Positions 3,404 through 46,071 of a stretch of DNA of 46,071 nt are shown here, piece by piece; within the stretch, counting starts at the first letter, position 1; the number at the start of each line of letters is the position of its first letter. The notes beneath the pieces are model-generated. The model did no database searches. It was not told the origin of the DNA and saw only the letters and a program-made list of their open reading frames with translations. The stretch is from a virus. A program made the position numbers and the translations under genes. The stretch spans positions 1 through 46,071 of IMG/VR virus record IMGVR_UViG_3300050821_017459; one strand, 5' to 3'.

Positions 3404-3425
3404 TTATTGAGTTGTAGGGATAGGT

Positions 3426-14534: not shown

Positions 14535-14601
14535 TTGCTGTTAAGTATAGGGATTGGGTTGGGAATGGCAATCGTGACGAGTGCACAGGATAGAATAAGA
14601 T

Positions 14602-28716: not shown

Positions 28717-29489
28717 TGCCATAGCTCTTGGGTCGGGACTTCCCGAAGTACCTTGATTTTCGACGCTCTCACTTTTCCGTCGCAGTCTTTGGCGACTACG
28801 ATATCTTTTACGGCGACCTCGCATTCGAGCAGGGCCATATCGGACCAGCCAGCGCCGAAGGACCGCGCCCAGGACTTTTCGGAAACGTGGATGCCTTGCG
28901 AACAGGAATTATCCTTTGAAGGATTGCACTTCTGCTGCTTGATCTTTCCAACCTCGTATTTGAACGACGCGTCGTAGTGGCTCAGATATTCGCCGTCTCT
29001 CTTGTGGACCGCCTTGTACAAGATCGCTTTTCCACCTTTGGAATCGACCGGGTAGCGCGCGGCGAATTCAGCGAAGGTCGGTTTGAAGTCGGGAATTACC
29101 TTGAGATACGAATTCTTGCCCACCACGAGCTTCATATTCTTTCTGTCCGACTTCCTGACCGATATGACGTTATAGCCCTTCGCAACTATCTCGGCAGAAT
29201 TGAATGCGCTTACCATCGCCTCGCCCCATAGCACGGCGTGGCTCGATCCCCATAGCACGGCGTGGCTCGATTCCCATAGCTCGGCGTGGCTCGATTCCCA
29301 TAGCACGGCGTGGCTCGATCCCCATAGTCGTACCCATGCCTGACCTCGCACGATGACGGCCGCTTCCTTAAAGGCAACGGCTAATTCCAACGGAGTGGCC
29401 TGGGAACCGCCTTCGACGTAAATCACGCCGGCAAAATCCTTGCTTAACGCATCCACTTCCGCTTGTGTCTTCACGATGATTTCTTTCAT
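28713..29489 (-). CDS. Phage protein with SSHAVLWG solenoid repeats and DUF7666-like C-terminus
   Basis: From ATG at 29489 (MKEIIVKTQAEVDALSKDFA) the product is 258 residues. Residues about 55-92 contain tandem octapeptides (SSHAVLWE, SSHAELWE, SSHAVLWG), likely a beta-solenoid. The C-terminal part (ILYKAVHKRDGEYLSHYDAS, CSQGIHVSEKSWARSF, CDGKVRASKIKVL) resembles DUF7666-type proteins in phages. The 24-nt DNA repeat behind the octapeptides could change copy number without breaking the frame. The frame extends upstream to 29783 only as a shadow of the ATPase gene. Confidence 0.6.
   Translation of the reverse strand: MKEIIVKTQAEVDALSKDFAGVIYVEGGSQATPLELAVAFKEAAVIVRGQAWVRLWGSSHAVLWESSHAELWESSHAVLWGSSHAVLWGEAMVSAFNSAEIVAKGYNVISVRKSDRKNMKLVVGKNSYLKVIPDFKPTFAEFAARYPVDSKGGKAILYKAVHKRDGEYLSHYDASFKYEVGKIKQQKCNPSKDNSCSQGIHVSEKSWARSFGAGWSDMALLECEVAVKDIVVAKDCDGKVRASKIKVLREVPTQELWQ
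29224..29319 (-). repeat. Four tandem 24-bp repeats inside the solenoid gene
   Basis: Plus-strand units start at 29224, 29248, 29272 and 29296 (core CCATAGCACGGCGTGGCTCG). The third unit has one change (CTCGG for CACGG) and a fifth partial unit follows. Each unit encodes one octapeptide. Near identity at DNA level suggests recent amplification by slippage. Confidence 0.9.
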
Positions 29490-31026: not shown

Positions 31027-31044
31027 GATTTGAATAGTTCAACG

Positions 31045-31125
31045 ATTCGGGAGGGTGAGAGCTAACCGTTGCCGAATAACTCTCCGTCTATCTTGGGCTA
31101 GCGTTGATAGCTGACCCTCCCGAAT
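31045..31125 (-). other. Long stem-loop just upstream of an HNH gene
   Basis: ATTCGGGAGGGT (31045-31056) and ACCCTCCCGAAT (31114-31125) are perfect inverted repeats. The pairing extends imperfectly to GCTA/TAGC, with a loop of about 45 nt. On the minus strand it lies between the 31-residue membrane peptide gene and the HNH gene. It could be a terminator/attenuator, or the edge of an inserted homing cassette. Confidence 0.55.
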
Positions 31126-31132
31126 GCAACCG

Positions 31133-31228
31133 TTATTTTGCCGCCCACTGAAGAAGTAACAGCACGAAACCGATGATCGCCGCCATGCCCACGATGCCTT
31201 CTACCCACTCACGAACCTTTTTCCACAT
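31133..31228 (-). CDS. 31-residue single-span membrane peptide
   Basis: ATG at 31228 opens MWKKVREWVEGIVGMAAIIG, followed by FVLLLLQWAAK and TAA. A charged amphipathic head and one hydrophobic span give a typical small membrane protein. The leader ACAAACCAACAAACAAAGAG is the CAA-rich type and also offers a weak AGAG site. No holin is seen elsewhere in the window, so a lysis-related role is one possibility. Confidence 0.5.
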   Translation of the reverse strand: MWKKVREWVEGIVGMAAIIGFVLLLLQWAAK

Positions 31229-31277
31229 CTCTTTGTTTGTTGGTTTGTTTCGGCCTTTTGATTCTGTCGCGCTGGCG

Positions 31278-31400
31278 CTAGGGCATCACTGGAGCGAGCA
31301 AGGCCGGTATCCGCCGGGTTAAAGCTTTCTCCGTGCGTTTTTTGAAAATGAGTTTCGCCTCTCCATGCCCATTTGCGTTCGTGATGTTGTTCCCTAGCAT
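31278..31400 (-). CDS. Possible 40-residue small protein
   Basis: ATG at 31400 opens a frame reading MLGNNITNANGHGEAKLIFK, then basic (KRTEKALTRRIPALL), ending at 31278. Residue choice is protein-like, but there is no Shine-Dalgarno sequence and no homology clue. It fills part of an otherwise gene-free 330-nt stretch (31229-31560). Confidence 0.3.
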   Translation of the reverse strand: MLGNNITNANGHGEAKLIFKKRTEKALTRRIPALLAPVMP

Positions 31401-31439
31401 CAGCGAACCAGATTCGGAATACGGGGGAGTGTTGGAAGC

Positions 31440-31514
31440 TTAACGGGATGGTACCAGCCGAAACCGATGCGTCCTTCCAATGTCTTGCGAAATCACTTCC
31501 GCTCCCCCATTCAT
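31440..31514 (-). CDS. Possible 24-residue leader peptide
   Basis: ATG at 31514, 12 nt from the -10-like TATACT of the promoter at 31527-31554, opens MNGGAEVISQDIGRTHRFRL and stops at 31440. Its only support is position relative to that promoter. Confidence 0.25.
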   Translation of the reverse strand: MNGGAEVISQDIGRTHRFRLVPSR

Positions 31515-31526
31515 CCGATATTTAGA

Positions 31527-31763
31527 AGTATACGGATTTCCCAACTTACCGCAAGTCGAGTTATGCACAGGCCGCAAGTCGCTTTTTCTCAGCCAGTTTT
31601 GCAATCCTTCCGGCGGCCATGACCTTGCCGTGTGCTGATTTCTCTTCCTTGGTCTTATCTTTCCAGCGGCGCTTTGCCAATGCTCTCATACCCTCCCTGA
31701 TCAGTTTGTCTTGTATCTTGCTCATTGAGCGAATACTACCATTCTTGCCAATTACCGCAAGTC
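31527..31763 (-). promoter_or_regulatory. Duplicated early promoters with a shared 12-bp element
   Basis: On the minus strand GACTTGCGGTAA occurs twice, at 31763-31752 and 31557-31546. In both copies TTGCGG is followed after 16 nt by a -10-like hexamer (TAGTAT at 31738-31733; TATACT at 31532-31527). The first serves the 54-residue gene, whose ATG lies 7 nt after TAGTAT. The second faces the rest of the leftward early region. The common element may be a -35 region, an activator site or a repressor operator. Confidence 0.55.
31561..31725 (-). CDS. 54-residue basic small protein
   Basis: ATG at 31725 opens MSKIQDKLIREGMRALAKRR, then WKDKTKEEKSAHGKVMAAGR, ending with TAA at 31561. The composition is strongly basic and helical, similar to small ARKRWK-type acidobacterial or phage peptides. 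TAGTAT lies 7 nt upstream, suggesting leaderless translation. Its place as first gene of the leftward early transcript makes a regulatory or DNA-binding role plausible. Confidence 0.5.
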   Translation of the reverse strand: MSKIQDKLIREGMRALAKRRWKDKTKEEKSAHGKVMAAGRIAKLAEKKRLAACA

Positions 31764-31809
31764 ATTTCTATACACATAAAAGATTCATTCGCACGATTCG
31801 CACACCGTC

Positions 31810-31865
31810 TTGATTTCTTGGTTATCCGACTTACGATTAGGTGAGCACCGAAAAGGAGGTGACTC
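31810..31865 (+). promoter_or_regulatory. Promoter and strong Shine-Dalgarno of the primase gene
   Basis: TTGATT (31810-31815), a 16-nt spacer and TACGAT (31832-31837) form a plausible sigma-70-like promoter. It reads divergently from the leftward early promoter 70 nt away. AAGGAGGTG a few nt before the ATG at 31866 is the strongest ribosome-binding site in the element. Confidence 0.45.
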
Positions 31866-32792
31866 ATGGAACGAACGAAGATAGATTTCGCAGCGCTCAA
31901 GTCGGGAATCGCCATTGATGCGGTTCTCACCCATTACGGCGTGCAAACCAAGAAACGGAACTCTCAGTACCTCGTCGCGGAATGTCCCCTGCCTTCACAC
32001 ACTTCAAAGGAATCCCCTCTTTCTTTCGCCATCAACGTCGAGAAGAACCTGTGGACCTGCCACAGCGACTCATGCAAGAAAGCTTCCGGCATGAAGGGCG
32101 GCGACGTGATTGACCTCGTGTGCCTTATCGAAGGGACGAAGCTCCCGCTCGAAGGCGCGCGGCGGCTCGTCGAGTGGTTTCCGCATCTGACTGGCAACGG
32201 CGGCGAAGCGAGGCCTGCCGGTATTCCCCTTATCGAAAAAAATAAGCCCCTCGCCTTCACGCTGAAGGACGTGAATCCCGAGCATCCGATGATCCAGTCC
32301 CGCGGCATCGCCGTTGCGACCGCCAAAGAGTTCGGCGTTGGCTTCTTCCCCGGCAAAGGCTCGATGGCCGGCCGCATCGTGTTCCCGCTCTACGAACAGT
32401 TGCGCTCGAACGGCGATGGCACTTCGCAAGTGGCGCTCGTCGGTTACGCTGGCCGGCTCGTGGCTGAACCAACGGCGGAGAATCCCAAATGGAAACTCCC
32501 GCCGGTCCATAAGAGCTTCCTGTACGGATTGGAGAAGACGTGGAATCCGGGAAAGCTTCTGATCCTGGCTGAGAGTTTCTGGGCGCCCTTGTACTACTGG
32601 GAGCGCGGCGCCCAATGCGCTTCGCTCATGGGCAAGGCGCTCACGGAAGGGCAGGAGAAACAGCTCGAACGCTTCCACGACATTTGCGTGGCGCTGGACA
32701 ACGACGAAGCAGGCCGTGAGGCTGCTGAAAAGATTTGTGCGCGCCTCAAAATGCGCCACAGGGTTATGCGGGCATTTCTGATGGAGGGCTGA
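31866..32792 (+). CDS. DnaG-type primase fragment: CHC2 zinc finger plus TOPRIM
   Basis: A 308-residue product with a CHC2 zinc finger (Cys40, His45, Cys65, Cys70; CHSDSCKKASGMKGGDVIDL). A middle segment MIQSRGIAVATAKEFGVGFF and a TOPRIM-like domain (LLILAESFWAPLYYWERGAQ with Glu236; CVALDNDEAGREAAEKI with Asp278 and Asp280) follow. It lacks a helicase domain and is shorter than cellular DnaG, as in phage and plasmid primases. It is the only major plus-strand gene in the core, with its own promoter, so primase expression can be controlled separately. Confidence 0.78.
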   Translation: MERTKIDFAALKSGIAIDAVLTHYGVQTKKRNSQYLVAECPLPSHTSKESPLSFAINVEKNLWTCHSDSCKKASGMKGGDVIDLVCLIEGTKLPLEGARRLVEWFPHLTGNGGEARPAGIPLIEKNKPLAFTLKDVNPEHPMIQSRGIAVATAKEFGVGFFPGKGSMAGRIVFPLYEQLRSNGDGTSQVALVGYAGRLVAEPTAENPKWKLPPVHKSFLYGLEKTWNPGKLLILAESFWAPLYYWERGAQCASLMGKALTEGQEKQLERFHDICVALDNDEAGREAAEKICARLKMRHRVMRAFLMEG

Positions 32793-32817: not shown

Positions 32818-33030
32818 TTATTCGCTTGGATCTGGAGGTTTAGGGCAGGTTTTAACCGTGTGACCTTCTGCTCCACAGCGCCCGCAGGCTTTCGGCTTGC
32901 GGGTTTTTATTTCACCGGCGACGACGTCGTATGATAACGAGGCCAGCTTACTGTTGATCAGAATCCGTTCGGCGAGAAGCAGGTCAATCGCCTGCTTCCG
33001 CAATTGTTCGGCTTGTTCTAGGATTGTCAT
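32818..33030 (-). CDS. Zinc-knuckle protein
   Basis: From ATG at 33030 the product is 70 residues (MTILEQAEQLRKQAIDLLLA...), a helical region followed by CGRCGAEGHTVKTC. That is a CX2CX4HX4C zinc knuckle, usually binding single-stranded nucleic acid. AAGGA is 6 nt from this ATG, preferred over an upstream ATG at 33066. It lies between the primase gene (convergent) and a coiled-coil gene. Confidence 0.65.
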   Translation of the reverse strand: MTILEQAEQLRKQAIDLLLAERILINSKLASLSYDVVAGEIKTRKPKACGRCGAEGHTVKTCPKPPDPSE

Positions 33031-33075
33031 AAAAGTCCTTGCGCTGTGTGAGGACGGAGCAGGCAACGGGGTTAG

Positions 33076-33582
33076 TTAGTGTACCGTCGCTTCAAAGTTA
33101 AGAAACGGTTCGATGATCTTTACCGCTTCTTCCGCCGTTTCTACCGTCATGAGCTTCAGCCGGGCCGCTTCAAATGGCTTGGCAAGCGCTTCTTCCTTGG
33201 AACCCAGTGCTTTATCAAGGCTTCGTCTCAACGATTCCTTCAGGCCATCAGGCGCGTTGTCGCTCAATCCGACGGTTCCATCATTCGCAAGCTCGAATCC
33301 AAGAATGGCTAGAGTTTCCTCACTCTGCGAAACCGCGGATTTCGCTTTGTTGAGTTCGCGTTCGGCCTTCTCTTCAGCAAGCCTGAGCTTATGGATTTCG
33401 TCAAGTGAAGATTTCGCGCCTTCCTTCTGAATAAAATCCCTGATATACGTATCCGTCAAAACCGCACAAGCGTCCTCGTAATCGCGCTTCGCTCTACACC
33501 AAATATCGCAGTTGTAGCCTGTGCCCATCATCTCCAACAGCTCCTTACGTCGGGGCTGTGTCAATCGTAAAGTGTCTTTCAT
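33076..33582 (-). CDS. Coiled-coil protein, function unknown
   Basis: A 168-residue helical product; the central coiled coil is IHKLRLAEEKAERELNKAKS and the C-terminal helix is EAARLKLMTVETAEEAVKII. N-terminal Cys residues (GYNCDIWCRAKRDYEDACAV) may be structural. It sits between the zinc-knuckle gene and the coupling ATPases. The leader CCTAAACAACAATG lacks a Shine-Dalgarno sequence. Confidence 0.45.
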   Translation of the reverse strand: MKDTLRLTQPRRKELLEMMGTGYNCDIWCRAKRDYEDACAVLTDTYIRDFIQKEGAKSSLDEIHKLRLAEEKAERELNKAKSAVSQSEETLAILGFELANDGTVGLSDNAPDGLKESLRRSLDKALGSKEEALAKPFEAARLKLMTVETAEEAVKIIEPFLNFEATVH

Positions 33583-33711: not shown

Positions 33712-34974
33712 TTAGGGATGGGAGGCAAGGAACTTCATGATCTTCGCCTCGGCTGCTTTCCGGTCGGTTCCCCAACGCTCCAGCGAGTGCTTTATGAGCT
33801 TCGTTGGCTTCGCCTCATCGCCCCGGCGTGCGATCGGTGGCGCTGCACGTACCTTGCGGACAATGGGCACGAACTGCGGCTCCTTGTCTTCGTCGCTGAT
33901 GTTTTCGAAGCTGCGAAGGTAAAAGCGGTATTTCGGAAGATCGGTGATATTCGCGGCGATGTCGTGGCCCCAGTTCTTTGCCATGATTTCTGCGTCTTCT
34001 CCCGAGCCATTGAAGATAATCTGGTTCCCGCAGTTCGAAAGGATGTCCCGAGCGAACGGGAGTTGGTGAAGGCCCTGCATAACTGGGACAACGCTGATTC
34101 CATATTTCCGGCCCTCAGCCAGGAGCGAGCTGAACCGTCCGCCATGGACGAAGTTCGGAGCCTCATCCACCACCAACAGGAACGGTGGCCTATCCTTTTG
34201 CCGTTCTCGCCGTAGGGCAGCGATGGATATCATGGAGACGATCAACGAGCCGATGATCTGCGCGATCTCCTCGCCGAGGCGTCCTTTCGACAGGCGGCAG
34301 ACCATGACCTTGTGGCCGTTCATGATATCGAGGAAATCGAGGGATTTGTCCTGTCCGATGATAGGAAGGATCGAGGGGCGCATCAACTTCCCTACTTTGT
34401 TGATCGGCGGGCTGAACTTTGCCATCTGGTCGCGCTCCTGGAGTTTCTCGTCATACTGCTCGCGGAACATTTTGAGAAGGGGGTTGTCGGTTTCCGCCAG
34501 TACCGTTTTCCGAAACTGGCCATCTGCTAGAAACCGGAAAACGTGGACCGGAGACGGATGTTTGAACTTTGCGCATACGGCGTCGATGGCATTGATGGTG
34601 ACGCGCGCCGACTCGTCGCCCCAAGCGGTTCCGGCAAGCGCTTTATTGATGGTGAAAAACGTCTCCTTGGCAAGTTCCAACTCCTCAGGTGTGTCGAAGT
34701 TGAAGGGGTTGAGCGGAATGGAGCTCTTGGCATCTGGATCAAGATAGATGAAATCCCACAGCCGGGACTTTGGGAACATGGTAGTCGTGAGGTCGGCAAG
34801 GTCGCCGTGGGGATCAATCAGCCCCGCGCCCCCGCCTTCCCTCACATGATCGAAGAATAGGTTGGCGAGGATGGTGGATTTTCCCATGCCACTACCCCCG
34901 ACTATGCAGGTATGTTTGGTGAGATCTATGTAGACGGGCTTGCCCGTCGCATCGTCATCGCCGATGTACGTCAT
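33712..34974 (-). CDS. TraG/HerA-like coupling ATPase (type IV secretion-type)
   Basis: A 420-residue ATPase without membrane segments: Walker A IVGGSGMGKST (residues about 24-34), AGLIDPHGDLADL, IPLNPFNF, and Walker B FLLVVDEAPNF (265-275), then VVPVMQGLHQL and GNQIIFNGSGEDAE. The DPHGDL and VVDEAPNF signatures are those of conjugative DNA-transfer/DUF87-type ATPases. A second, membrane-anchored ATPase of the same class lies upstream (35696-37798), with a replication-relaxation-like gene between. Together they look like a mobilization module rather than normal phage genes. Confidence 0.78.
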   Translation of the reverse strand: MTYIGDDDATGKPVYIDLTKHTCIVGGSGMGKSTILANLFFDHVREGGGAGLIDPHGDLADLTTTMFPKSRLWDFIYLDPDAKSSIPLNPFNFDTPEELELAKETFFTINKALAGTAWGDESARVTINAIDAVCAKFKHPSPVHVFRFLADGQFRKTVLAETDNPLLKMFREQYDEKLQERDQMAKFSPPINKVGKLMRPSILPIIGQDKSLDFLDIMNGHKVMVCRLSKGRLGEEIAQIIGSLIVSMISIAALRRERQKDRPPFLLVVDEAPNFVHGGRFSSLLAEGRKYGISVVPVMQGLHQLPFARDILSNCGNQIIFNGSGEDAEIMAKNWGHDIAANITDLPKYRFYLRSFENISDEDKEPQFVPIVRKVRAAPPIARRGDEAKPTKLIKHSLERWGTDRKAAEAKIMKFLASHP

Positions 34975-34994
34975 GGGGGGAAGGAAAGGCCGCC

Positions 34995-35043
34995 AACCCG
35001 CCTCCCATCCGAAACGCGGATCACGCGCTGAGGGAGGTGGGTT
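34995..35043 (-). terminator. 12-bp-stem hairpin between coupling ATPase genes
   Basis: AACCCGCCTCCC (34995-35006) pairs with GGGAGGTGGGTT (35032-35043), with one G-U. The loop contains a smaller stem ATCCG/CGGAT. It fills the 123-nt gap between the replication-relaxation-like gene and the downstream ATPase gene. Attenuator or processing site; there is no long T-run. Confidence 0.5.
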
Positions 35044-35097
35044 CTCGGTGTTGCAGGGGTTCTGCCCGCTGCCCCGCCCGTAGGCGATTACTTTGAA

Positions 35098-35871
35098 TTA
35101 TAGGTCGAGGAAGGAAAAAGTGTCGCCCTTGGGTGTGCGGAAGTCGGCCAGGAGATTTGCTTTCGTGCCAAGCCAGAACATACGGTGGTTCAGATCGGGC
35201 TGCATTGCTTTGACGAGATTGTCACGGGTTTCAATGGTCTTCTTGAAAAGTACGACGCGGTAGGTCTTGAAGCCCCACTGCTCCTCGCACTCGGCGGAGT
35301 TGTAGTACTGATAGAAGTGTTCCAATTTCCGCGTGACGCTATACTTGCCGTCCTTCATATTGCCGAGCTTCGCACGCTCGAATTCAAGAAAGAAGTGGTT
35401 GGTATTCTTGGCCTCCCGACGGAGATCTGTTATGGAGAAATACGCATCGGGGTCGATAAAATGCTTGAGGTCATGCTGCCGCCACTTGAGGCTCAAGCTG
35501 TGTCGGTCACAAAGATCCTGGAGAGCAATGTGGAATAGGGAGATTTCTAGCTCGTGGTCCAAGGTGCGGTCAGAGTGCTCATCGAAGGTCTTGCCTCCGT
35601 ACTCTGCAACAGCCCTATCAGTGAGGCCACATGCATAGCTGACCCCATCGGTTTGAAGATCAAGGTATTTCAGACGCCGGACAAGATTGAGCTCATCAAG
35701 TAGCTTCAGGCTCCGGTTTATCGTTCTGATGTCGTTTCGGTTCGGCGCCCTTTTTCGGATTAGCCGAGCCAGGTCCTTGCTCCGGAGGACGAAATGGCTC
35801 GCTAGAACCTGAAGCACTGCCCGCATCGTGCGGCGTGGGGGAAGTGGTTGGTTGCGGTTCCGGTTTGGCAT
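35098..35871 (-). CDS. Replication-relaxation family winged-helix protein
   Basis: A 257-residue protein. The N-terminal winged helix is VLQVLASHFVLRSKDLARLI, then NRSLKLLDELNLVRRLKY; next come ACGLTDRAVAEYGGK and ELEISLFHIALQDLCDRHSL. The C-terminal domain has HFFLEFERAKLGNMKDGKYS followed by KLEHFYQYYN. This matches replication-relaxation (MobC-like/relaxosome-associated) proteins found beside coupling ATPases on plasmids and integrative elements. Its first 176 nt overlap the 3' end of the larger ATPase gene in another frame; the winged helix needs the early start, so the overlap seems real. Confidence 0.72.
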   Translation of the reverse strand: MPNRNRNQPLPPRRTMRAVLQVLASHFVLRSKDLARLIRKRAPNRNDIRTINRSLKLLDELNLVRRLKYLDLQTDGVSYACGLTDRAVAEYGGKTFDEHSDRTLDHELEISLFHIALQDLCDRHSLSLKWRQHDLKHFIDPDAYFSITDLRREAKNTNHFFLEFERAKLGNMKDGKYSVTRKLEHFYQYYNSAECEEQWGFKTYRVVLFKKTIETRDNLVKAMQPDLNHRMFWLGTKANLLADFRTPKGDTFSFLDL

Positions 35872-37798
35872 TACCTGAATTATCGGGATTTTGCACAGAT
35901 TTGCAACCGTACAATTCCAACGTGCGTTTCTTGATGAAATCTGCGTGACTGATCGGTGATTCGCCTAGTTCCTGCCACGTGCCCGTCAGCACCCTGCGTA
36001 TAGGTTCGGTAGGTTTGCGATGGATGGCGTGGAACTTTTCAAGTCGGGTCAGTTCGAGGACATCGAAGTCCTTGAGGACATCCTGCTCTGACATGAACAT
36101 GTCCGAGGGTATACCAGCGCGGGAGACGCCCCGCTCCTTAAGTGCATCGACCTTATCCTTCTGCCACGAGCGGAGGCCAGAATGGGCGAAGCGGTTCGCG
36201 TCGTTTGATTGGAGCCGGAAGAGGAACATGTTACCAACGCCCAGAAGGCCTTGAAAGATGTCGTCGTTGATCTGGTCAAACCATTGGTTCGCCAGTGTGA
36301 GGCACAGTTTGTACTTCCGCGCCTGCGAGAGGATCGTTTTGAAGTCCGAAGAGACCTGGCACTCGGGGAACTCATCGACGTAGAGCATGTGAAAAGTCCG
36401 CGTGGACTCGTCTTCGTTGTCGGCCTGGCTGAGCGCGGCCTGGAGCAACTTTGCGATGATCAAAGCTGAAACGATTGTGCGGTTTTCCTTTTGGCTCCCT
36501 TTCAGGTTGACGAGCAAGATCTTTTTTTTGAAAAAGACATCGGATATTTTGAGAGCCGGATTCCTGCTGCCGAATATCGTCCTGAGGCTCGGGTTCCAGA
36601 TGAGGGGGGTTAGGGTCCGTATGATCGGAAGCGTGTCCTGAGGACTGAGCTTCATGCGACGCCAACGGAGTTTTAACTCCGGGGAAATCGATGGCTGGCT
36701 GAGGATCTCCTCGCGACGGAGATCGTGTTGAAGGAAGTCATGGATGTCTAGGAAGCTGACATCTTTCGCGTCCAGAAGAGTGTACAGGAGTGGGATCAGC
36801 ACGCTCTCCATCACCTTGCCGACATGGCTTCCGGTGCGCTCCGAGAACGTATTGAACAGGGCGAGGATGTCAGCGACTATCGTTTCCTTTTCCTCAGGGT
36901 TGGACCAACCGAGGAAATCAATCGGAACGGGATTCTTGAGGTCGATATAGATCGTGTCTGCGGCCCGCTCCGGGGGTATCCAGTGGATGATTTTGGAGAC
37001 CAGGTCTCCGGCCGGATCGATGATGGTCACGCCTCGCTTTGGGTCCCTGCAAGCGTGACGGAGTTCCGCCAAATCTTCCGAGGGAGTTTCCGGCTTGAAG
37101 TCCAGGCCCTGGCAAATGTCGTTGATTGCGAGGCGCAGCATGAACATGCTTTTCCCTTGGCCGGATACGCCTGGCATCCAGATATGGTGGGTGCGCTCTT
37201 CGTCGGATAGGCGTTTTACTTCAGACCATCGGCTGTGCTCTTCGGCTTTACTCAACAGAGGCTTCTCCTTCGGACGGGCGGCGATTGCCTTCCATTGTTC
37301 ATGCTCCTCCCTCGATTTCTTGAGTTCAGTAGTGCGAATCTCAGCCTGCTGAAGCTCGTGCAGGCGCTTGGAATACTTAGAGTGTTTGTCGCTGGTTTCG
37401 ACAGCTTGCCAGCCGCTATACATGGTGGCGATGACCGCCAATCCTAATAGAAGGTTAGGTGGCCGGACGGGCCGGAGGCCTACGGTGATTGCCGCATAGA
37501 TCCCGATGATCCCGAATGCCGCGGCAACCACCATCCAGAGGGTTTTCTTGTGGCAAAACTCTTCTGCGAGGGTACGATATTCCGGTATATCATGAGGCAC
37601 AATCCGTGCCATGATCGGAGTTGCCAACCGGAGGACTTCCTCCTGGGGTACTCCTATCGCGATCATTTCATTTAGTTGCTTCCGCTGGAGTTCCCACTTG
37701 CGATTTTCCCACTTAGGCCATAATGAATGGTTCGTCCAATAGGCGAGGAGTGCGCCAACGGTAGCGGATACGAGGACGATGATAATGGTCACGAGCAT
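35696..37798 (-). CDS. Membrane-anchored VirD4/TraG-like coupling ATPase
   Basis: A 700-residue product with hydrophobic segments at about 3-20, 87-105 and 115-129, then a helical linker. The ATPase has Walker A MPGVSGQGKSMFM (210-217), DPAGDLVSKI, and Walker B HMLYVDEFPECQ (472-477), then TILSQARKYKLCLTLANQWF, the TraG/VirD4 sensor-type motif. The C-terminal 65 residues are Pro/Gly/Ser-rich (EPQPTTSPTPHDAGSASGSS) and are encoded by DNA shared with the next gene. Such proteins deliver DNA-protein complexes to type IV secretion channels. No channel genes (VirB4, VirB6 and so on) appear in the window. Confidence 0.78.
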   Translation of the reverse strand: MLVTIIIVLVSATVGALLAYWTNHSLWPKWENRKWELQRKQLNEMIAIGVPQEEVLRLATPIMARIVPHDIPEYRTLAEEFCHKKTLWMVVAAAFGIIGIYAAITVGLRPVRPPNLLLGLAVIATMYSGWQAVETSDKHSKYSKRLHELQQAEIRTTELKKSREEHEQWKAIAARPKEKPLLSKAEEHSRWSEVKRLSDEERTHHIWMPGVSGQGKSMFMLRLAINDICQGLDFKPETPSEDLAELRHACRDPKRGVTIIDPAGDLVSKIIHWIPPERAADTIYIDLKNPVPIDFLGWSNPEEKETIVADILALFNTFSERTGSHVGKVMESVLIPLLYTLLDAKDVSFLDIHDFLQHDLRREEILSQPSISPELKLRWRRMKLSPQDTLPIIRTLTPLIWNPSLRTIFGSRNPALKISDVFFKKKILLVNLKGSQKENRTIVSALIIAKLLQAALSQADNEDESTRTFHMLYVDEFPECQVSSDFKTILSQARKYKLCLTLANQWFDQINDDIFQGLLGVGNMFLFRLQSNDANRFAHSGLRSWQKDKVDALKERGVSRAGIPSDMFMSEQDVLKDFDVLELTRLEKFHAIHRKPTEPIRRVLTGTWQELGESPISHADFIKKRTLELYGCKSVQNPDNSGNAKPEPQPTTSPTPHDAGSASGSSEPFRPPEQGPGSANPKKGAEPKRHQNDKPEPEAT

Positions 37799-37832
37799 GG
37801 GGGCCGCCGAGCGGCGTTTAACACCGGCAATC

Positions 37833-37984
37833 GCCGCCCGTCCTCACGATAGTGACCCGGTAGGGCGAGCGCAGCGACGGGCAATCTTCGTCGCGATAGC
37901 GCCCGATAGGGTCTTCTCACGCTGACTGGTAAGGAAGCTGAAGAAGAACGAAGATTGCCCGTCGCTAGACGAGGGACGGGCGGC
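37833..37984. repeat. Nested inverted repeats, candidate oriT or replication origin
   Basis: Inner 19-bp arms at 37873-37891 and 37948-37966 are perfect reverse complements (CGACGGGCAATCTTCGT core). Outer arms GCCGCCCGTCCTC (37833-37845) and GAGGGACGGGCGGC (37971-37984) match apart from one extra base. Outside lie direct repeats CACCGGCAA (37822, 37986). Between the arms is a degenerate direct repeat CGATAGTGACCCGGTAGGG / CGATAGCGCCCGATAGGG (37847, 37894). The region is noncoding, immediately upstream of the large coupling ATPase gene. Confidence 0.6.
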
Positions 37985-38234: not shown

Positions 38235-38447
38235 ATGGATTCCTTCGAGAAGATGTACTCGGTTAAAGAGGCAGCAGCCGTGCTTGGGTGCTCGCCTGAT
38301 ACGGTCAGACGTCGTATCGGTGACGGCTCCATTAGGGCGTGGAAGTTGTTCGGCGGGACCAGTCAGCGGAAACGGAAGTACGAGAGCTGGCGAATTCCGG
38401 AGAGCAGTTTGAAGCGCTTCATGAGCGACGGGAGCAACGCAGCTTGA
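38235..38447 (+). CDS. Excisionase-like MerR/HTH_17-type DNA-binding protein
   Basis: A 70-residue product: MYSVKEAAAVLGCSPDTVRR, then RIGDGSIRAWKLFGG and YESWRIPESSLKRFM. This is the winged helix of excisionase/HTH_17 proteins, which bend DNA and steer integrases toward excision. It converges on the integrase gene with a shared terminator. The ATG is preceded by CAGGAGGT. An alternative is a simple transcriptional regulator. Confidence 0.7.
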   Translation: MDSFEKMYSVKEAAAVLGCSPDTVRRRIGDGSIRAWKLFGGTSQRKRKYESWRIPESSLKRFMSDGSNAA

Positions 38448-38479: not shown

Positions 38480-39568
38480 TTATTTCACGCGCACCAGTTT
38501 TGGCGCGGTCCACGTCTCCTTCAGGAAATCATCTAAGCGCTCCTGCCGTCCACGAATCCACTGCGAATAGTGCTTGATAACGATCGTCGGTGAGTTACCA
38601 AGTATTGCGGCAACGTCTTCCACGCTTGCGCCACGCATGAGCAAATCCGCAGCGAGGGTATGCCTAAATCGGTGGGGGTGGTCGGGTGAAATCTTGGCGT
38701 CCTTGCACATCCTTTTGATCCGGCGCCGCCAGAGATTTGAGGCGGTGTGCGGGTTGTCGGACTCCCCGATCAGGAACAGGTATCCGCCCTTGGGCGTGAT
38801 GGCCTTCAGCTCGGCTACGAGGTCGGGTGGCAGGAGAATATGGACAGGCGTGCCGGCCTTCGTGGTTTGGAGATAGAGCCGGTTCTCGATGAGGTGCGAA
38901 GTCTTTAAGAGGGACGCATCGCCGATCCGCAATCCGGAGTGCCCGAGGGTTTTTATGAATGTCGTCTCGATCGGCGTCTTGCATTTCCCGATGATCTTCG
39001 CCACCTCTGCTTCATCGAACGGGAGACGCGGATTCGGCCTGACCTTCGGAGGCTTGATGATCTTGGCCGGGTTCTTTGGAATCCACTCCTGTTCCTCGAA
39101 GAACCGGAAACAGGTTCGGACCCGCTCCAACTCTTTGGCTGCCGTGATGGAGGAAACGTTGCGACCTTTGAGCAAATCCCTGACTTGCTGAGTCCCGAAT
39201 TCGGAGAGGTATCTTAGGCCATGCTCCTCCGCGAATTTCGAAACGATGTCGCGCACAGTCCGGTATTTCTTGAGCGTGTTCGGCGATAGCCTTCTGGCTT
39301 CGCAGTCCTCGTAGTATTTCTTGACCGCGCTTTCCACGGTGATACGGTCGGGCTTCTTCTTGCCTTCCCATTCCTTGATAGTCTTGTCGGCCTCGCTCCA
39401 TGAGCGGGTCTTTAGGGATTCCTTAATGGGCCTGCCGTTGTGGACTCCGCGCACCCACATCGGGCAAGAGCACTTCTTCCAGTAGGAATCGGACGCGTGA
39501 GGGCAGGCGGCGACGGTCTTCCCGCCGACGATCCGCGCCTGTTCGTGCCGCCTATAAAGCGTGAGCAC
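38480..39568 (-). CDS. int: Tyrosine integrase of the element
   Basis: From GTG at 39568 the product is 362 residues starting VLTLYRRHEQARIVGGKTVA. GGAGG lies 6 nt upstream, and a longer frame from 39631 would run across integrase arm-like sites, so GTG is favoured. It has an N-terminal Cys-rich segment (CPHASDSYWKKCSCPMWVRG) and a core-binding domain with LSPNTLKKYRTVRDIVSKF. The catalytic domain has Arg214 (GHSGLRIGDASLL), Lys237 region (LQTTKAG), HPHRFRHT (His299, Arg302) and HYSQW (His333, Tyr334). All catalytic residues are present. The att core lies 108 nt upstream of the start. Confidence 0.9.
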   Translation of the reverse strand: MLTLYRRHEQARIVGGKTVAACPHASDSYWKKCSCPMWVRGVHNGRPIKESLKTRSWSEADKTIKEWEGKKKPDRITVESAVKKYYEDCEARRLSPNTLKKYRTVRDIVSKFAEEHGLRYLSEFGTQQVRDLLKGRNVSSITAAKELERVRTCFRFFEEQEWIPKNPAKIIKPPKVRPNPRLPFDEAEVAKIIGKCKTPIETTFIKTLGHSGLRIGDASLLKTSHLIENRLYLQTTKAGTPVHILLPPDLVAELKAITPKGGYLFLIGESDNPHTASNLWRRRIKRMCKDAKISPDHPHRFRHTLAADLLMRGASVEDVAAILGNSPTIVIKHYSQWIRGRQERLDDFLKETWTAPKLVRVK

Positions 39569-39587
39569 AAGCCCTCCAAAACCAACA

Positions 39588-39800
39588 TTGGGACAAAGTT
39601 GGTACAAAGGCAATTTGAAAGATTCGCACAAATCGCGAAGTGGCTTGTTTTAAATGAGTTGGGACAAAAGAAGCATGGCGGAGAGAGAGGGATTCGGACA
39701 CCGTCGGGATGTTGATGGCGTGCAAGTTATTGATTCCTCAAGTCGCCCGAGTCGCGTGATTCGCAGGAGTGCCGAATCATTGGTACAAAATCGGTACAAA
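39588..39800. promoter_or_regulatory. Five integrase arm-type-like sites (TYGGKACAAA) around the att core
   Basis: TTGGGACAAA at 39588-39597 and 39659-39668, TTGGTACAAA at 39599-39608 and 39780-39789, and TCGGTACAAA at 39791-39800 share one consensus and orientation. Three lie on the integrase side and two beyond the core. Arm-type sites bound by the N-terminal domain are expected on both sides only in an attP-like junction. Confidence 0.55.
39676..39696. other. att core copy (inner), matching the tRNA-Ser 3' end
   Basis: Twenty-one bases beginning TGGCGGAGAGAGAGG are identical to 42769-42789, the 3' end (CCA, acceptor strand and part of the T arm) of tRNA-Ser; identity stops right after GATTCG. 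This copy is 108 nt from the integrase start. It is the junction between the main element and the collapsed one. Confidence 0.85.
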
Positions 39801-40125
39801 ATCGTGTGTGCGCGCCGCTCATCACCTGCTCATTGGTAAGCCGCAGGATTTTGATGCCCCGTGCCGCCTCGAAGGCGGCATCCTTGCGGCGGTCTTCTTC
39901 GGCGTCGTGGTAGCGGCCGTCGATCTCGATGATGAGCTTCAGATCGGGAAGGTAGAAATCCGCGATGCGGTAGAACGGGTGGTAGAACCCCTGCTGGAAG
40001 CGATAGGTTAGGCCGAGTTCTTCGAGGCGGCAGCAGAACCGGCGCTCTGCGGGCGTCGCCTGCTTCTTGAGGCGGGATACGAAGATCGCGTGCCGCTTCG
40101 CCATCGTCATGCCACTGAAGGCCAT
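39727..40125 (-). CDS. DUF559-type (Vsr-like) endonuclease-like protein
   Basis: A 132-residue product: SRLKKQATPAERRFCCRLEE, LTYRFQQGFYHPFYRIADFY, then LPDLKLIIEIDGRYHDAEED and GIKILRLTNEQV. This is the PD-(D/E)xK fold of DUF559 proteins, related to Vsr repair nucleases. The last 25 residues run through arm-site-like DNA and are unlike the family, so the 3' end may have been rewritten by integration. GACTTGCGA upstream (40158-40150) resembles the early-promoter element at 31.5-31.8 kb. It lies in the collapsed prophage. Confidence 0.8.
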   Translation of the reverse strand: MAFSGMTMAKRHAIFVSRLKKQATPAERRFCCRLEELGLTYRFQQGFYHPFYRIADFYLPDLKLIIEIDGRYHDAEEDRRKDAAFEAARGIKILRLTNEQVMSGAHTRFCTDFVPMIRHSCESRDSGDLRNQ

Positions 40126-40299
40126 GCCTGATTATTGGCACGAAACGGGTCGCAAGTCCATGAAAAGATTATTGAAGCTATTAGAAACCGAATACTAGTT
40201 GTGATTCGAGTCTTCTGATTCGATAGAGTTACCTTAACCAAATTTAGCGTTCCAAACGCAATGTCATTTATCGTAGTGTCAGTACGAGGTTTAAAGAAA

Positions 40300-40434
40300 A
40301 TGCCACTGCCATTACTTGCGCTACTAGCCGGAGCTGTCGTCGGAAAAGCAACGTCCAAGAAAAAGATCGCCGTCAACGGGCGCACGAAAAAAGACGGCAC
40401 GAGATCGAAGGCGCACCTGCGGAAGGCGAAGTAG
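40300..40434 (+). CDS. 44-residue small protein: hydrophobic head, basic tail
   Basis: ATG at 40300 opens MPLPLLALLAGAVVGKATSK, then KKIAVNGRTKKDGTRSKAHL and TAG at 40432. A short Ala/Leu-rich hydrophobic N-terminus followed by a Lys/Arg-rich tail is typical of tiny phage or membrane-associated proteins. It has only a weak upstream AGG. It lies in the collapsed prophage. Confidence 0.45.
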   Translation: MPLPLLALLAGAVVGKATSKKKIAVNGRTKKDGTRSKAHLRKAK

Positions 40435-40470
40435 TAAATCTCGTCGTGTCGTCGGGCTGAAGGGGACCAG

Positions 40471-40587
40471 TTAGAAGCCGAATTCATGCTTGACAACCTG
40501 GTAGAGCACGAATAGAAAGCAGGCCAACAATACGGCCTCAAAGACGATGAACTTGATTTGGAATATCCTATAACTAAATCTCGCCAA
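40471..40587 (-). CDS. Possible 38-residue single-span membrane peptide
   Basis: A frame with TTG at 40587 reads LARFSYRIFQIKFIVFEAVL, then LACFLFVLYQVVKHEFGF and TAA. The central hydrophobic stretch would cross a membrane once. There is no ATG; it overlaps the end of the zinc-ribbon remnant by 14 nt. Confidence 0.3.
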   Translation of the reverse strand: MARFSYRIFQIKFIVFEAVLLACFLFVLYQVVKHEFGF

Positions 40588-40918
40588 CCTGCCTTCGGTT
40601 GAGTGTCGCGCCTGCATTGGTCCTCCAATGCCGAAAGATAGGTGATGGGGAATTCTTTGTAGAAGCGGATGGCTGGTTGCACTGGGGGCAGTTCACGATG
40701 ATGGCGTCGTGCTCCGGCCAAACGATTTCGACGATCTGCTTCAGCTCTTCCTTCTTGCCGAACCAGTTCCACCAGATGCGCTCCAGGATTCCCTGCGGTT
40801 GCATGACCGGCACCCGCTCAACCGTGATATTCGGGTGCCGCTTGGCGACGAAAAAATAGTCGCCCTTATGGAGCAGGTCTTGCGAATACTTGACGCGGCG
40901 GACGGTGAATGCCTCCAT
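40574..40918 (-). pseudogene. Deletion-chimeric zinc-ribbon gene of the collapsed prophage
   Basis: From ATG at 40918 the first 80 or so residues (MEAFTVRRVKYSQDLLHKGD..., RIWWNWFGKKEELKQIVEIV, NCPQCNQP) closely parallel the intact protein at 14160-14534. After CNQP the similarity stops, the second CxxC is missing, and the next DNA (plus-strand GAATTCTTTGTAGAAGCGGAT, from 40650) matches the 3' end of the neighbouring gene at 13944-14159 in another frame. The fusion fits a deletion of about 0.3 kb between GCGGATG-like microhomologies. Confidence 0.75.
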
Positions 40919-41118
40919 TTGCTTAGAAGTATAAGTGCTTATCCTGCTTTGGCAATAGCTATATGCACAGTGGCCAATCAACTACCGAATTCCTAATGCG
41001 CTCGGTTCGCGGAGTTATCAGAGTCATAAAACGCCGGTCAAATAATGTGCGGAAGTGTGCGACAAAAACAGGTGTCATGCCGTTCAGTTCGGCTCTATAC
41101 TAGACCCCGAAAGGACAA

Positions 41119-41805
41119 ATGCTCATGCAACGATTCTCCACTTCAGTTCTTTTGTGCTTCGTAGTCGGCATTACGGGCTGCTCTGAGCCACACCTCAGCC
41201 GAGGAACCGCTGAACGCGCCTTGCGCGGGAAGGTGAAGACCGAAATAACCTCAGACGTTCTTGGTAGAACAGACTGGTGGGAGAGCCAATGGGGTCGCGG
41301 GCAGAATTACGAATACATGAAAGCATTCGCCAATGCAGACATGGACTACCGGAACCTTTTGGTGGCGGAAGGAATTCTGAAGAGGCCGCCAGACACTCGC
41401 ATGGATTTCGGATGTACACCCAAGCCTGAATGCCAGCAACGGGATTTTTCCGTGTACTTCCAGGTCATTCCTTCTGCCGTGGTTAAATCAGGTTATCCAG
41501 GAGGACCGTACGCCTACGCCATCCTCGTCCTGGCGAAGCCGAGTGACCCAAAGGTGACGGGCATATCGGAAGAGGGGAATGACGCCATCGTCGAGTATGA
41601 GGTGGGGTACACGCCAACAGAACTCTACAAACGGTTGTCAGCCAAGACGCAAGAGCTCATGGCGAGATGTTCGCTCCCTAGCCTTTCCCGAAATCTGCCG
41701 ACGTTCTGCACTCGGTGGTTGAGCGAAGCCGCAATTCGCGATAGGAAAGACCACGGTCAGGCGCGCTTCAAGAAATATGATGACGGATGGCGAATTGTGG
41801 AGTAG
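41119..41805 (+). CDS. Lipoprotein moron in the collapsed prophage
   Basis: A 228-residue product: MLMQRFSTSVLLCFVVGITG then C, a lipobox ITGC. It shares plan and C-terminal motif (GQARFKKYDDGWRIVE) with the lipoprotein at 15747-16388, although sequences have diverged strongly. TATACT at 41096-41101 and AAGGA precede the ATG with the same 17-nt TATACT-ATG distance as at 15747. It occupies the same place between zinc-ribbon and terminase ends, so the two are probably positional equivalents. Confidence 0.7.
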   Translation: MLMQRFSTSVLLCFVVGITGCSEPHLSRGTAERALRGKVKTEITSDVLGRTDWWESQWGRGQNYEYMKAFANADMDYRNLLVAEGILKRPPDTRMDFGCTPKPECQQRDFSVYFQVIPSAVVKSGYPGGPYAYAILVLAKPSDPKVTGISEEGNDAIVEYEVGYTPTELYKRLSAKTQELMARCSLPSLSRNLPTFCTRWLSEAAIRDRKDHGQARFKKYDDGWRIVE

Positions 41806-41846
41806 CCAATCCTTGTGCATGAGGGCAGTGAGATATACTGGCAACC

Positions 41847-42386
41847 ATGGAAATCGCTCCAGAGCGGCACGTGGCGAAACATAATGGAAGGATTTTGATC
41901 GTAGATCAATCCAAAGGCGGGCATTGGGGCTGGTTCGCCATGATCGAGGAGACTGGCGAGAAGGAAGGACTCGCCGATTGGATGGGAATAGAGGTCTATT
42001 ATAACTTCGAAGACACACTCGAAGCCGCTAAGGAAGCGGCCTGCCAAAGCGTCACTTCGAGAGTCAATGCCTTCGGAAAGAACTGTGCTGAGGCCAATAT
42101 CAGTTGGACACGGGGTTCTCAACCGCTCACGCCTCATATGAAAGCCACCATTACTTTGAGGTTCTACGATGGGGAGTTTTGGATCGAAATAACCGATGAA
42201 GCGACTGGAAACACCGAACGGCTAACCCAAGTGTATGACGAACCTGATGACGTCGCCGCAGTCCTTCAAAAACTCGGGCTTACGCTCAGCCAAACGCAAC
42301 ATCTAGTGATGCAGAATGCCATGAACCTAGGCACAGCGAGTCTGTCGGGTGTGACCGTACCCCGCAACTATGCCTCGATCCAGTGA
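41847..42386 (+). CDS. Second moron of the collapsed prophage, function unknown
   Basis: A 179-residue product: NGRILIVDQSKGGHWGWFAM, then FYDGEFWIEITDEATGNTER and VAAVLQKLGLTLSQTQHLVM. It reads as an alpha/beta domain with a helical C-terminus. TATACT at 41834-41839 is only 7 nt from the ATG and there is no Shine-Dalgarno sequence, so the message is probably leaderless. Its last 19 nt overlap the antisense terminase remnant. Confidence 0.55.
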   Translation: MEIAPERHVAKHNGRILIVDQSKGGHWGWFAMIEETGEKEGLADWMGIEVYYNFEDTLEAAKEAACQSVTSRVNAFGKNCAEANISWTRGSQPLTPHMKATITLRFYDGEFWIEITDEATGNTERLTQVYDEPDDVAAVLQKLGLTLSQTQHLVMQNAMNLGTASLSGVTVPRNYASIQ

Positions 42387-42437
42387 ATCTTCGGGCACCG
42401 CAAGCGCCCCTTGGCGATTTGAAAGCCATAGTGTCCG
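42368..42437 (-). pseudogene. C-terminal remnant of a terminase large subunit
   Basis: In the minus frame ending TAG at 42368 the last codons read RLRCPKIHWIEA, matching the end (DLPKIHWIEA) of the intact terminase. The DNA ATCCAGTGAATCTTCGG is shared with 16408. It is joined directly to an integrase fragment, so the rest of the prophage between terminase and integrase has been lost. Confidence 0.7.
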
Positions 42438-42668
42438 CGACCGCTCTTTCAGAAGATCGCGTACTTCCTGGGTTCCGAACTCGGAGAGGTATGTGATGCC
42501 GTGGCGTTCGCTGAATTTTGAGATGACGTCCCGGACGGTTCGATACTTCTTCAAGGTGTTCGGCGAGAGCCGTTGTTCCTCGCAAGCGCTGTAGTATTTC
42601 TTGACCGCGTTTTCGACCGTGAGGCGCTCGGGCTTTTTCTTTCCCTCCCATTCCTTGATGATCCGGTC
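42438..42668 (-). pseudogene. Internal fragment of a tyrosine integrase
   Basis: The translation RIIKEWEGKKKPERLTVENA, then LSPNTLKKYRTVRDVISKFS and YLSEFGTQEVRDLLKER matches residues about 61-135 of the intact integrase at roughly 75-80% identity by eye. The N-terminal 60 residues and the whole catalytic domain are missing. It lies 100 nt from the tRNA-Ser att core, like the intact gene from its core. Confidence 0.85.
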
Positions 42669-42768
42669 AACGCGGCAACACACAGTATAAGAGGTGGCAC
42701 AGCTTACCACGTCTTGTACACCTTGTACATTTTTCTCAGGAGTTTTTTGTAAGTTGTTGATTTTAAAC

Positions 42769-42789
42769 TGGCGGAGAGAGAGGGATTCG
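42769..42789. other. att core copy (outer) at the 3' end of tRNA-Ser
   Basis: The same 21 bases as 39676-39696, here as part of the intact tRNA. It is the chromosomal boundary of the integrated array on this side. Confidence 0.85.
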
Positions 42790-42858
42790 AACCCTCGATA
42801 GAGTTTCCCCTATACACGCTTTCCAAGCGTGCGCCTTCAACCACTCGGCCATCTCTCC
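42769..42858 (-). tRNA. tRNA-Ser(GGA), integration target
   Basis: Read on the minus strand the acceptor stem is GGAGAGA/TCTCTCC with discriminator G and encoded CCA. The anticodon arm is CACGC-TTGGAAA-GCGTG (anticodon GGA). A long variable arm (TATAGGGGAAACTCTATC) marks a class II tRNA, and the T arm is GAGGG-TTCGAAT-CCCTC. Complete and apparently functional despite integration. Confidence 0.95.
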
Positions 42859-44190: not shown

Positions 44191-45057
44191 TTACGCGGTC
44201 ATGCGCTGCTGCCAGTTCTGATGCACCCACTTTTCGAACGAAGTCAGCGGGTACTCGCGGCGCAGGTCCGATATGTCCACGTGATAGCCGACATCCTGAA
44301 ACCAGCGGAACATCGTCGTGAGTTCGTGTCCCACGTTCTTCTCGAACAGTTCCCAAGGCACCTGTTCGTAGCGCACCTCGCGGCCTGCCATGCGGCTGAA
44401 CACTTCCGCCAGCTCGGTCATCGAGAGTTCATCGCCCGCCAGGTCGACCGTGCGTCCCTGCCAGTGCCCCGGCTTGTCGAACGCCATCGCGACGAAGCCG
44501 CCAATGTCGTCCACCGCGATCATTTGCAGCCGCGTTTCGGGGGTCAGCGGCATTCGCAGCGAGCCCTGGTCGATCTGGTCGCGCATGGAGAGCCAGTTCT
44601 CCATAAAGAAGACGGGCCGCAAGATCGTGTAGCGCATGCCGGTGCCGCGAATATGCTCCTCGATCTTGTACTTGCTGTCGAAGTGCGGGACTCCGGTATT
44701 GCGATCGGCGCTGCCGACGGAGCTGTAGACGAAGTGGCGTACGTCATTGCGCTTCGCTTCATTGGCGAGGAGCATGCCTTGGCGCAGTTCGCCCTCGACG
44801 CCTTTCTCCACGAAAGTTTGGACGGCATACACACCGTAGACACCGTCCAGCGCGCGCCGCACCGACGCCGCATCGTCCAGATCGCCGCGCGCCATCTCGG
44901 TGCCGCGGCCCACTAACGCCCGGGCCTTATCGCTGGTGGGATCGCGGGTGAGGCAGCGAACGGTGAATCCTTTCTCCCGCAAGTGCCGCAATGCCGCTCC
45001 GCCCTGATTCCCGGTTGCCCCGGCGACCAGAATGGTCCTGCTCTCTTTCTTTGCCAT
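44191..45057 (-). CDS. NmrA-family NAD(P)-binding protein
   Basis: From ATG at 45057 the product is 288 residues. TILVAGATGNQGGAALRHLR is the Rossmann GxxGxxG motif; RDPTSDKARALVGRGTEMAR, VYAVQTFVEKGVEGELRQGM and FVYSSVGSADRNTGVPHFDS follow the NmrA/HSCARG pattern. These atypical SDR proteins sense or use NADP(H) and often lack the catalytic Tyr-x3-Lys. The start at 45057 is chosen because GAGGAGG lies 5 nt upstream; an extension to 45189 is shadow sequence. Confidence 0.85.
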   Translation of the reverse strand: MAKKESRTILVAGATGNQGGAALRHLREKGFTVRCLTRDPTSDKARALVGRGTEMARGDLDDAASVRRALDGVYGVYAVQTFVEKGVEGELRQGMLLANEAKRNDVRHFVYSSVGSADRNTGVPHFDSKYKIEEHIRGTGMRYTILRPVFFMENWLSMRDQIDQGSLRMPLTPETRLQMIAVDDIGGFVAMAFDKPGHWQGRTVDLAGDELSMTELAEVFSRMAGREVRYEQVPWELFEKNVGHELTTMFRWFQDVGYHVDISDLRREYPLTSFEKWVHQNWQQRMTA

Positions 45058-45157
45058 AGAGCCTCCTCGATGATTTCCGATACCGCAAAATCCCGCAGGT
45101 TGGTAGCCACGGGTTGCGGCATTCGGTACCAATACGCACCGAGGAGGCTCCGGGCCG

Positions 45158-46071
<914 letters not shown>

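Follow-up and report, generated by a model that had tools for sequence, protein, structure and literature searches.

Relaxases of the MOBC type are described as PD-(D/E)XK enzymes in a part of PMC12857230, where TraX, the MOBC relaxase of pAD1, is reported to bind five direct repeats away from nic. The family PF13814 (Replic_Relax) is equated with the MobC relaxases in the available part of PMC5357655, which also places MOBC relaxases beside VirD4-type coupling proteins in integrative and mobilizable elements (IMEs), and it serves as a relaxase model in an excerpt of PMC11104534. According to a section of PMC7431656, CloDF13 encodes its own membrane coupling protein, MobB, the anchor of which is essential for mobilization. 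Here, we describe a gene block of related make-up in a virus genome, the IMG/VR record IMGVR_UViG_3300050821_017459 (46,071 bp; the whole stretch was analysed and is called the window), in which phage genes run into the host chromosome. The block encodes two putative coupling-type ATPases, ATPase A and ATPase B, separated by a relaxase-like protein, RR, and is preceded by a structured cis element. Its conservation in related phages gives good support for reading it as a module, of relaxase and coupling-ATPase type, that is integral to a phage lineage. A literature search, short of full texts, found no description of phages of this kind.

Components of the block

The block and its upstream element consist of the following features, in positions of the window:

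33712-34974, minus strand: ATPase A, 420 aa, soluble TrwB/TraG/HerA-type ATPase, recognized by Pfam profiles and 47% identical to its homologue in the sister phage G404
35098-35871, minus strand: RR, 257 aa, Replic_Relax/MOBC-like, with a winged helix and a predicted PD-(D/E)XK-like nuclease core
35696-37798, minus strand: ATPase B, 700 aa, predicted TrwB/HerA-fold ATPase with two hydrophobic segments fused at its N terminus
37833-37984, minus strand: cis element, candidate origin for RR, a two-stem inverted repeat directly upstream of the ATPase B operon

An earlier note on this DNA had placed three genes at 33712-37798, between primase and integrase, and all three are open reading frames (ORFs) at these coordinates, on the minus strand. 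Its replication-relaxation-type protein and its soluble TraG/HerA-like ATPase were both confirmed by Pfam. For the third protein, presented as a membrane-anchored VirD4/TraG-like ATPase, the anchor is supported, while the coupling-protein identity is backed by fold and profile and falls under the Pfam cut-offs.

RR scores 30.4 bits against PF13814 (cut-off 25.3). The cut-off is also passed by 5/9 records of sister RR proteins, with that of G404 slightly below (24.8 bits). Ten phage homologues with 18-50% identity to the window protein all share H106, P141-D142, E163 and K182, and at least 9/10 keep E165, together a predicted acidic/lysine active site of PD-(D/E)XK type; K182 is not kept in another RR alignment that takes in other elements. 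An AlphaFold 2 model, with a predicted local distance difference test score (pLDDT) of 85, shows a winged helix and, after it, a helix-strand-strand-strand-helix-strand core in a PD-(D/E)XK-like order. Matches in PDB cover mainly the winged helix, which is MarR-like, and one search listed winged-helix proteins alone; we infer the nuclease core from the model. As called, RR overlaps the ATPase B frame by 176 nt (35696-35871), hence its true start may lie further in; overlaps of varying length occur in several sisters.

ATPase A exceeds the cut-offs of three Pfam families, TrwB_AAD_bind (PF10412, 41.9 bits, cut-off 20.5), TraG-D_C (PF12696, 37.2, cut-off 22) and DUF87 (PF01935, 34.5, cut-off 23.2). 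A PDB search with its family profile returned IcmO/DotL and TrwB first and HerA next. It has no N-terminal anchor, and its one internal hydrophobic stretch (236-254) lies in the ATPase core. A role as the packaging ATPase was rejected because the phage already encodes its own TerL, although the terminase family phrog_2666 weakly matches the protein.

ATPase B remains under the Pfam cut-offs for coupling proteins (PF02534, 17.6 bits, cut-off 20.1; PF10412, 14.2, cut-off 20.5). It matches PHROG 5156 (E 3e-21), and in Foldseek its AlphaFold 2 model (pLDDT 71.5) matches HerA and TrwB about equally (E 5e-9 to 2e-8), so that profile and fold alone are what would tie it to the coupling-type ATPases. 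Its two hydrophobic segments, residues 1-19 and 90-108, stand where coupling proteins carry N-terminal transmembrane segments and support a membrane anchor; all membrane segments given here are predictions from hydropathy only. In G404, G411, G412, G415, G418, G427, G262, L318, L319 and L321, a predicted segment is encoded by a distinct ORF that precedes ATPase B; no such ORF was found in the ORF calls of L317, L320 and G425.

Conservation in sister phages

The sister phage G404 was found by a scan with the ATPase A alignment. It is colinear with the window through integrase, ATPase B, RR, ATPase A, the primase on the opposite strand, Sak4, SSB, TerL, portal and capsid, and its tail genes include one for the tape measure. 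The same 41 bp, part of the Sak4 gene, are directly repeated at the two contig ends, as expected of a circular assembly holding the whole phage together with the module.

The earlier note had called for other phages with this block, and 13 phage contigs besides the window show the order ATPase B-RR-ATPase A, with the primase on the opposite strand in most: G404, G412, G411, G415 (its ATPase A, masked in ORF calling, is seen by profile only), G418, G425, G427, the five behind L317-L321, and L329. The bacterial contig G262:C103 has the same order, with the primase opposite, near a Terminase_6 gene. From a scan with the capsid, 80/88 relatives were kept, and 32 of the longer ones were searched for the module, with an ATPase present in 11. 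Among capsid-sister contigs of at least 46 kb, a TraG/HerA-type ATPase is carried by 9/10, and RR by the same nine. When ATPase A, ATPase B or the integrase was used alone to scan viral contigs and genome contigs, the searches were unproductive.

The cis element upstream of the operon

In the window, the element consists of a perfect 19-nt inner inverted repeat (37873-37891/37948-37966) nested in an 11-nt outer one (37833-37843/37974-37984), with four CTAYCG direct repeats within 37847-37909. Folded as DNA, the region lies 6.2 standard deviations below its shuffles. The element was found upstream of ATPase B in 10/13 phages checked, the window included. The same element occupies the same place in L317, L318, L320, G418, G411 and L329, and a diverged form with the core CGGG(G)TATCY occurs in G404, G412 and G415, in the last slightly inside the ATPase B start as called. 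The element of L319 is cut off by the contig end, and L321 is too short to reach its position.

The arms of the element co-vary. In seven sequences, cognate arms pair at 52/56 positions in the variable portion of the inner stem, as opposed to 3.4/8 in mismatched arms, and the true arm assignment alone among 5040 reaches the observed pairing; the element sequences are related, hence this is to be read as a comparison and not as a probability. Of the 202 stem positions in these sequences, 198 are Watson-Crick and none is G.T. Within 369,653 bases of phage loci, nine loci (eight phages) each contain one facing pair of the core pattern, and no such pair occurs in 978,362 bases of bacterial loci. 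Over 10 elements, CTAYCG is present in 39 copies on the operon strand and one on the other. When all viral contigs were scanned blindly for the inner arms, eight matched, six of them with the module, including L329, which came to light in this way. The two matches without the module, L327 and L330, lack extended complementarity and were set aside as chance matches in coding sequence. The pattern has no match in 396 acidobacterial genomes.

By its place and structure, the element looks like an origin for RR, and its CTAYCG repeats may be likened, by analogy, to the TraX binding site. As a separate observation, an 18-nt stretch including the outer arm (37826-37843) recurs inverted within the ATPase B gene (37272-37289).

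Relatives outside the lineage

Searches with RR by tblastn against plasmids and phages were unproductive, and phage proteins with RR-like folds were found by structure instead, with those of the Bacillus phages JL and G at the top (Foldseek E 1e-11). Against PF13814, gp146 of phage G reaches 90 bits, and tblastn links it to SPO1 gp27.3, a member of the RR family labelled 'replication initiation by nicking' in RefSeq. The SPO1 gene directly upstream of it encodes gp27.4, a TraG/HerA-type ATPase by the profile of this analysis (E 4e-34), and phage G gp156 is another (E 1e-61). The pairing of such an ATPase with an RR protein is therefore wider than the present phage lineage, and the statement of the earlier note that none of the three proteins belongs to standard tailed-phage biology does not hold. 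To our knowledge, the role of SPO1 genes 27.3 and 27.4 is unexplained.

RR, ATPase and primase are also carried by non-phage acidobacterial integrative elements (G297, G298 and G193). In a sample of 396 acidobacterial genomes, PF13814 was matched in 22 and ATPase A in 26. Flanks were examined for 20/24 RR places of this sample, 12 with a TraG/HerA ATPase nearby and eight without.

Possible functions of the module

The reading that we place first, with somewhat less than even confidence, is that the block is an integral nick-and-pump module of temperate tailed phages, made of MOBC-mobilization parts and serving the replication or maintenance of the phage itself. RR would bind the cis element upstream of its own operon, probably at the CTAYCG repeats, and would nick phage DNA at this element. 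The membrane-tethered ATPase B and the soluble ATPase A could then act as ring-shaped pumps moving or unwinding the nicked DNA, with the phage primase and SSB serving the exposed strand, and the process may support replication or maintenance at the membrane after excision. The sequences show the gene set, its order and conservation, the cis element with its co-varying stems and a place in a circular phage genome; nicking, pumping, a membrane site and the purpose are proposed on top of these. In our opinion, three points argue for such processing of the phage's own DNA. SPO1 and phage G are strictly virulent and keep the ATPase-RR pair, which speaks for intracellular use; retention in the lineage is near-universal; and the linked primase travels with RR and ATPase in the non-phage elements named above.

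Several observations weigh against it. A membrane anchor, either fused or as a small upstream protein in most phages, is unnecessary for simple replication, and in CloDF13 MobB the anchor is essential for mobilization (PMC7431656, section cited above). ATPase B is very diverged in G404, G412 and G427, with 16-17% identity to the window protein for the first two, and that of G404 has no Pfam match at all. Searches for the cis element were negative in G425, G427 and G262, and it could instead be a transcribed leader. The module is also not uniformly kept: G419 (46,031 bp) has TerL and an integrase, and ATPase, RR and primase were not found in the stretches examined; gene orders differ in G431, G433 and G435; and G406 shows the ATPase alone of the module.

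Conjugal mobilization is a possible but more doubtful alternative. RR would nick the excised circular phage genome at the cis element, acting as origin of transfer (oriT), and ATPase B, perhaps with ATPase A, would hand the DNA to the type IV secretion channel of a co-resident conjugative element, like CloDF13 MobB/MobC. Genomes of a lineage with a core MOBC relaxase, coupling ATPases and oriT could then leave both in particles and as single strands via the helper channel. MOBC relaxases with VirD4-type coupling proteins in IMEs (PMC5357655, in the part cited) and the membrane coupling protein of CloDF13 itself are precedents for such a route. The membrane anchor agrees with it, the direct repeats recall the five-repeat TraX site (PMC12857230, in part), int, xis, origin-like site and module are all neighbours, and the same set occurs in non-phage integrative elements. 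However, the ATPase-RR pair is kept by the virulent SPO1 and G, there are two ATPases rather than one, ATPase B stays under the coupling-protein cut-offs, and near-universal presence in the lineage is as for a core function; no helper is known and no transfer has been seen. Replication or maintenance of the phage's own DNA is slightly favoured over mobilization, and this split is a matter of opinion.

The cis element may instead be a structured mRNA leader or attenuator of the ATPase B operon, with RR acting elsewhere, which we hold to be rather unlikely and which is compatible with the other readings. It lies directly upstream of the first gene, in L319 and L322 stops a few bases short of the start codon, folds strongly, and has CTAYCG confined to one strand. 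The absence of G.T pairs among the 202 stem positions, nearly all of them Watson-Crick, is however unusual for RNA stems varying this much, and no Rfam match was found.

A role in competition or defence appears improbable. RR as nuclease and the HerA/TraG translocases would attack rival phage or plasmid DNA, and the inverted repeat would serve as an operator or mark a protected self site. Defence systems commonly pair HerA with a nuclease, and RR has a MarR-like winged helix. In a PADLOC scan of 10 proteins, the only models matching the module were mad8/HerA/DndH-like ATPase models (mad8 against ATPase A, E 2e-20). The likeness to mad8 and other HerA-type defence ATPases lies in the ATPase A domain, whereas RR and ATPase B of the window have no PADLOC match, no partner genes of such systems were recognized among the proteins scanned, the block occupies a core position next to int and primase and not a variable slot for cargo, and the cis element has paired, co-varying stems and does not resemble a short operator.

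Genome context and integration site

The left end of the window is cut inside the phage, so that the prophage is incomplete there. TerL, portal, capsid, integrase and attachment (att) copies mark a temperate tailed phage. From the right, the minus strand carries tRNA-Ser(GGA), a relic, the integrase, ATPase B, RR, ATPase A and two small genes; past the plus-strand primase follow endonuclease VII, a Sak4-like gene, SSB, a DUF1064 resolvase-like gene, TerL, portal/MuF, a protease-like gene (so labelled by position only) and the capsid, on the minus strand. The capsid (2150-3403) was assigned from conservation in sisters and position, with no family model behind it. The features flanking the block are:

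31866-32792, plus strand: Toprim primase, on the opposite strand to the block, at a position shared by most sisters and the G262 contig
32818-33066, minus strand: 82-aa protein, with a relative at the same place in G418
33076-33582, minus strand: 168-aa protein, relatives of which adjoin ATPase A in several sister phages
38235-38447, plus strand: HTH_17 excisionase-like protein
38480-39631, minus strand: tyrosine integrase
39676-39699: att-like copy of the tRNA-Ser 3' end, 23/24 nt, with 0 expected in shuffles
42769-42858, minus strand: tRNA-Ser(GGA), the 3' end of which (42769-42792) is the other att-like copy

The relic between the att copies holds a fragment of an integrase gene, which shares 74% identity with that of the phage, and 269 nt that share 82% identity with 14281-14549, a picture that points to two related elements integrated in tandem, with the relic as a decayed related prophage. 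This tandem accretion at tRNA-Ser (39676-42792) contains the integrase relic at 42327-42710 and a DUF559 gene at 39727-40125. Near the integrase of G404 (L160) lie a tRNA-Ser(ACT) (2716-2789) and an IS1595-type transposase gene (2953-3819).

That the block is a separate IME inserted beside, or fused with, the prophage at tRNA-Ser, for which the tandem att copies with the integrase relic at 39.7-42.8 kb and the related elements in genomes without a TerL match could be cited, is very improbable and was rejected because no att copy lies near 31 kb, sister phages keep the same block as part of their core, and G404 assembles as a single circle including it; the block has no boundaries of its own apart from phage structural genes, as an IME would. 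A second att set delimiting 31-38 kb, raised in the earlier note as a sign of a separate element, was likewise not seen, the extra copy framing the relic across the integrase. What stands of the interpretation given there is the relaxase and coupling-ATPase stock of the proteins, to which the analysis adds an origin-like cis site beside them; a phage integrated into an IME, or a set foreign to phage biology, is not what was found.

The one clue to the host is a flanking NmrA-like gene (44191-45189), the best relatives of which (64-67% identical) are in metagenome-assembled genomes of Terriglobia/Bryobacteraceae (Acidobacteriota); PF13814 was not matched in eight genomes holding relatives of this gene. 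The module-bearing family is one of soil phages, probably with acidobacterial hosts.

Other observations concern the packaging and replication genes. The portal/MuF fusion (10550-13939) is split by a LAGLIDADG-bearing intein-like insertion (1129 aa against 782 aa in G404), and TerL (16398-18872) has a C-terminal Hint/intein (824 aa against 499 aa), a second intein-like insertion in the packaging genes of the window phage. A 24-bp tandem repeat, CCCATAGCACGGCGTGGCTCGATT, is present in about 4-5 copies at 29225-29344, between the SSB-side genes and the Sak4-like gene. Between endonuclease VII and the primase, 839 bp (31027-31865) lack a long ORF and contain a 12-nt inverted repeat (31045-31056/31114-31125).

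Comparison with known systems

Similar to CloDF13 MobB/MobC and the MOBC-type IMEs, as described in parts of PMC5357655 and PMC7431656, the module would pair a coupling-type ATPase in the membrane with a relaxase of MOBC type and would lack a secretion channel. Unlike these, it sits in a tailed-phage genome, with a second, soluble ATPase, a primase and a structured cis element; no reading frame of the CloDF13 record matches the module profiles. Should mobilization be its role, phage and conjugation transfer routes would be joined in one element.

The acidobacterial elements G297:C16 and G298:C112 share RR, ATPase A, a related primase and an integrase with the window, with tRNA-Ser beside the integrase in G297. 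They differ in cargo, and no TerL (phrog_38) match was found in the G297 and G298 genomes; G297 has, in addition, an RPA-type replication initiator and a 1039-aa ATPase, unlike the window. At L106 (1612-4731), a 1039-aa TraG/HerA-type ATPase carries a C-terminal HTH_17 excisionase-like fusion, while the two are separate but close in the window.

The phages SPO1 and G resemble the window in bearing a TraG/HerA-type ATPase that adjoins (SPO1) or lies about 5 kb from (G) a Replic_Relax protein. They are, however, large Bacillus phages with one ATPase of 825-906 aa instead of the ATPase B/ATPase A pair (in phage G, gp155 is a very weak candidate for a second ATPase at best), and have no integrase, Xis or tRNA context in the stretches examined. 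If the module serves replication, it would reveal what Replic_Relax proteins do in phages. A relaxase and coupling-ATPase set can thus belong to the long-kept core of temperate phage genomes, and the window supplies a concrete origin-like site for it and a tie to SPO1, a classical phage, through genes 27.3 and 27.4.

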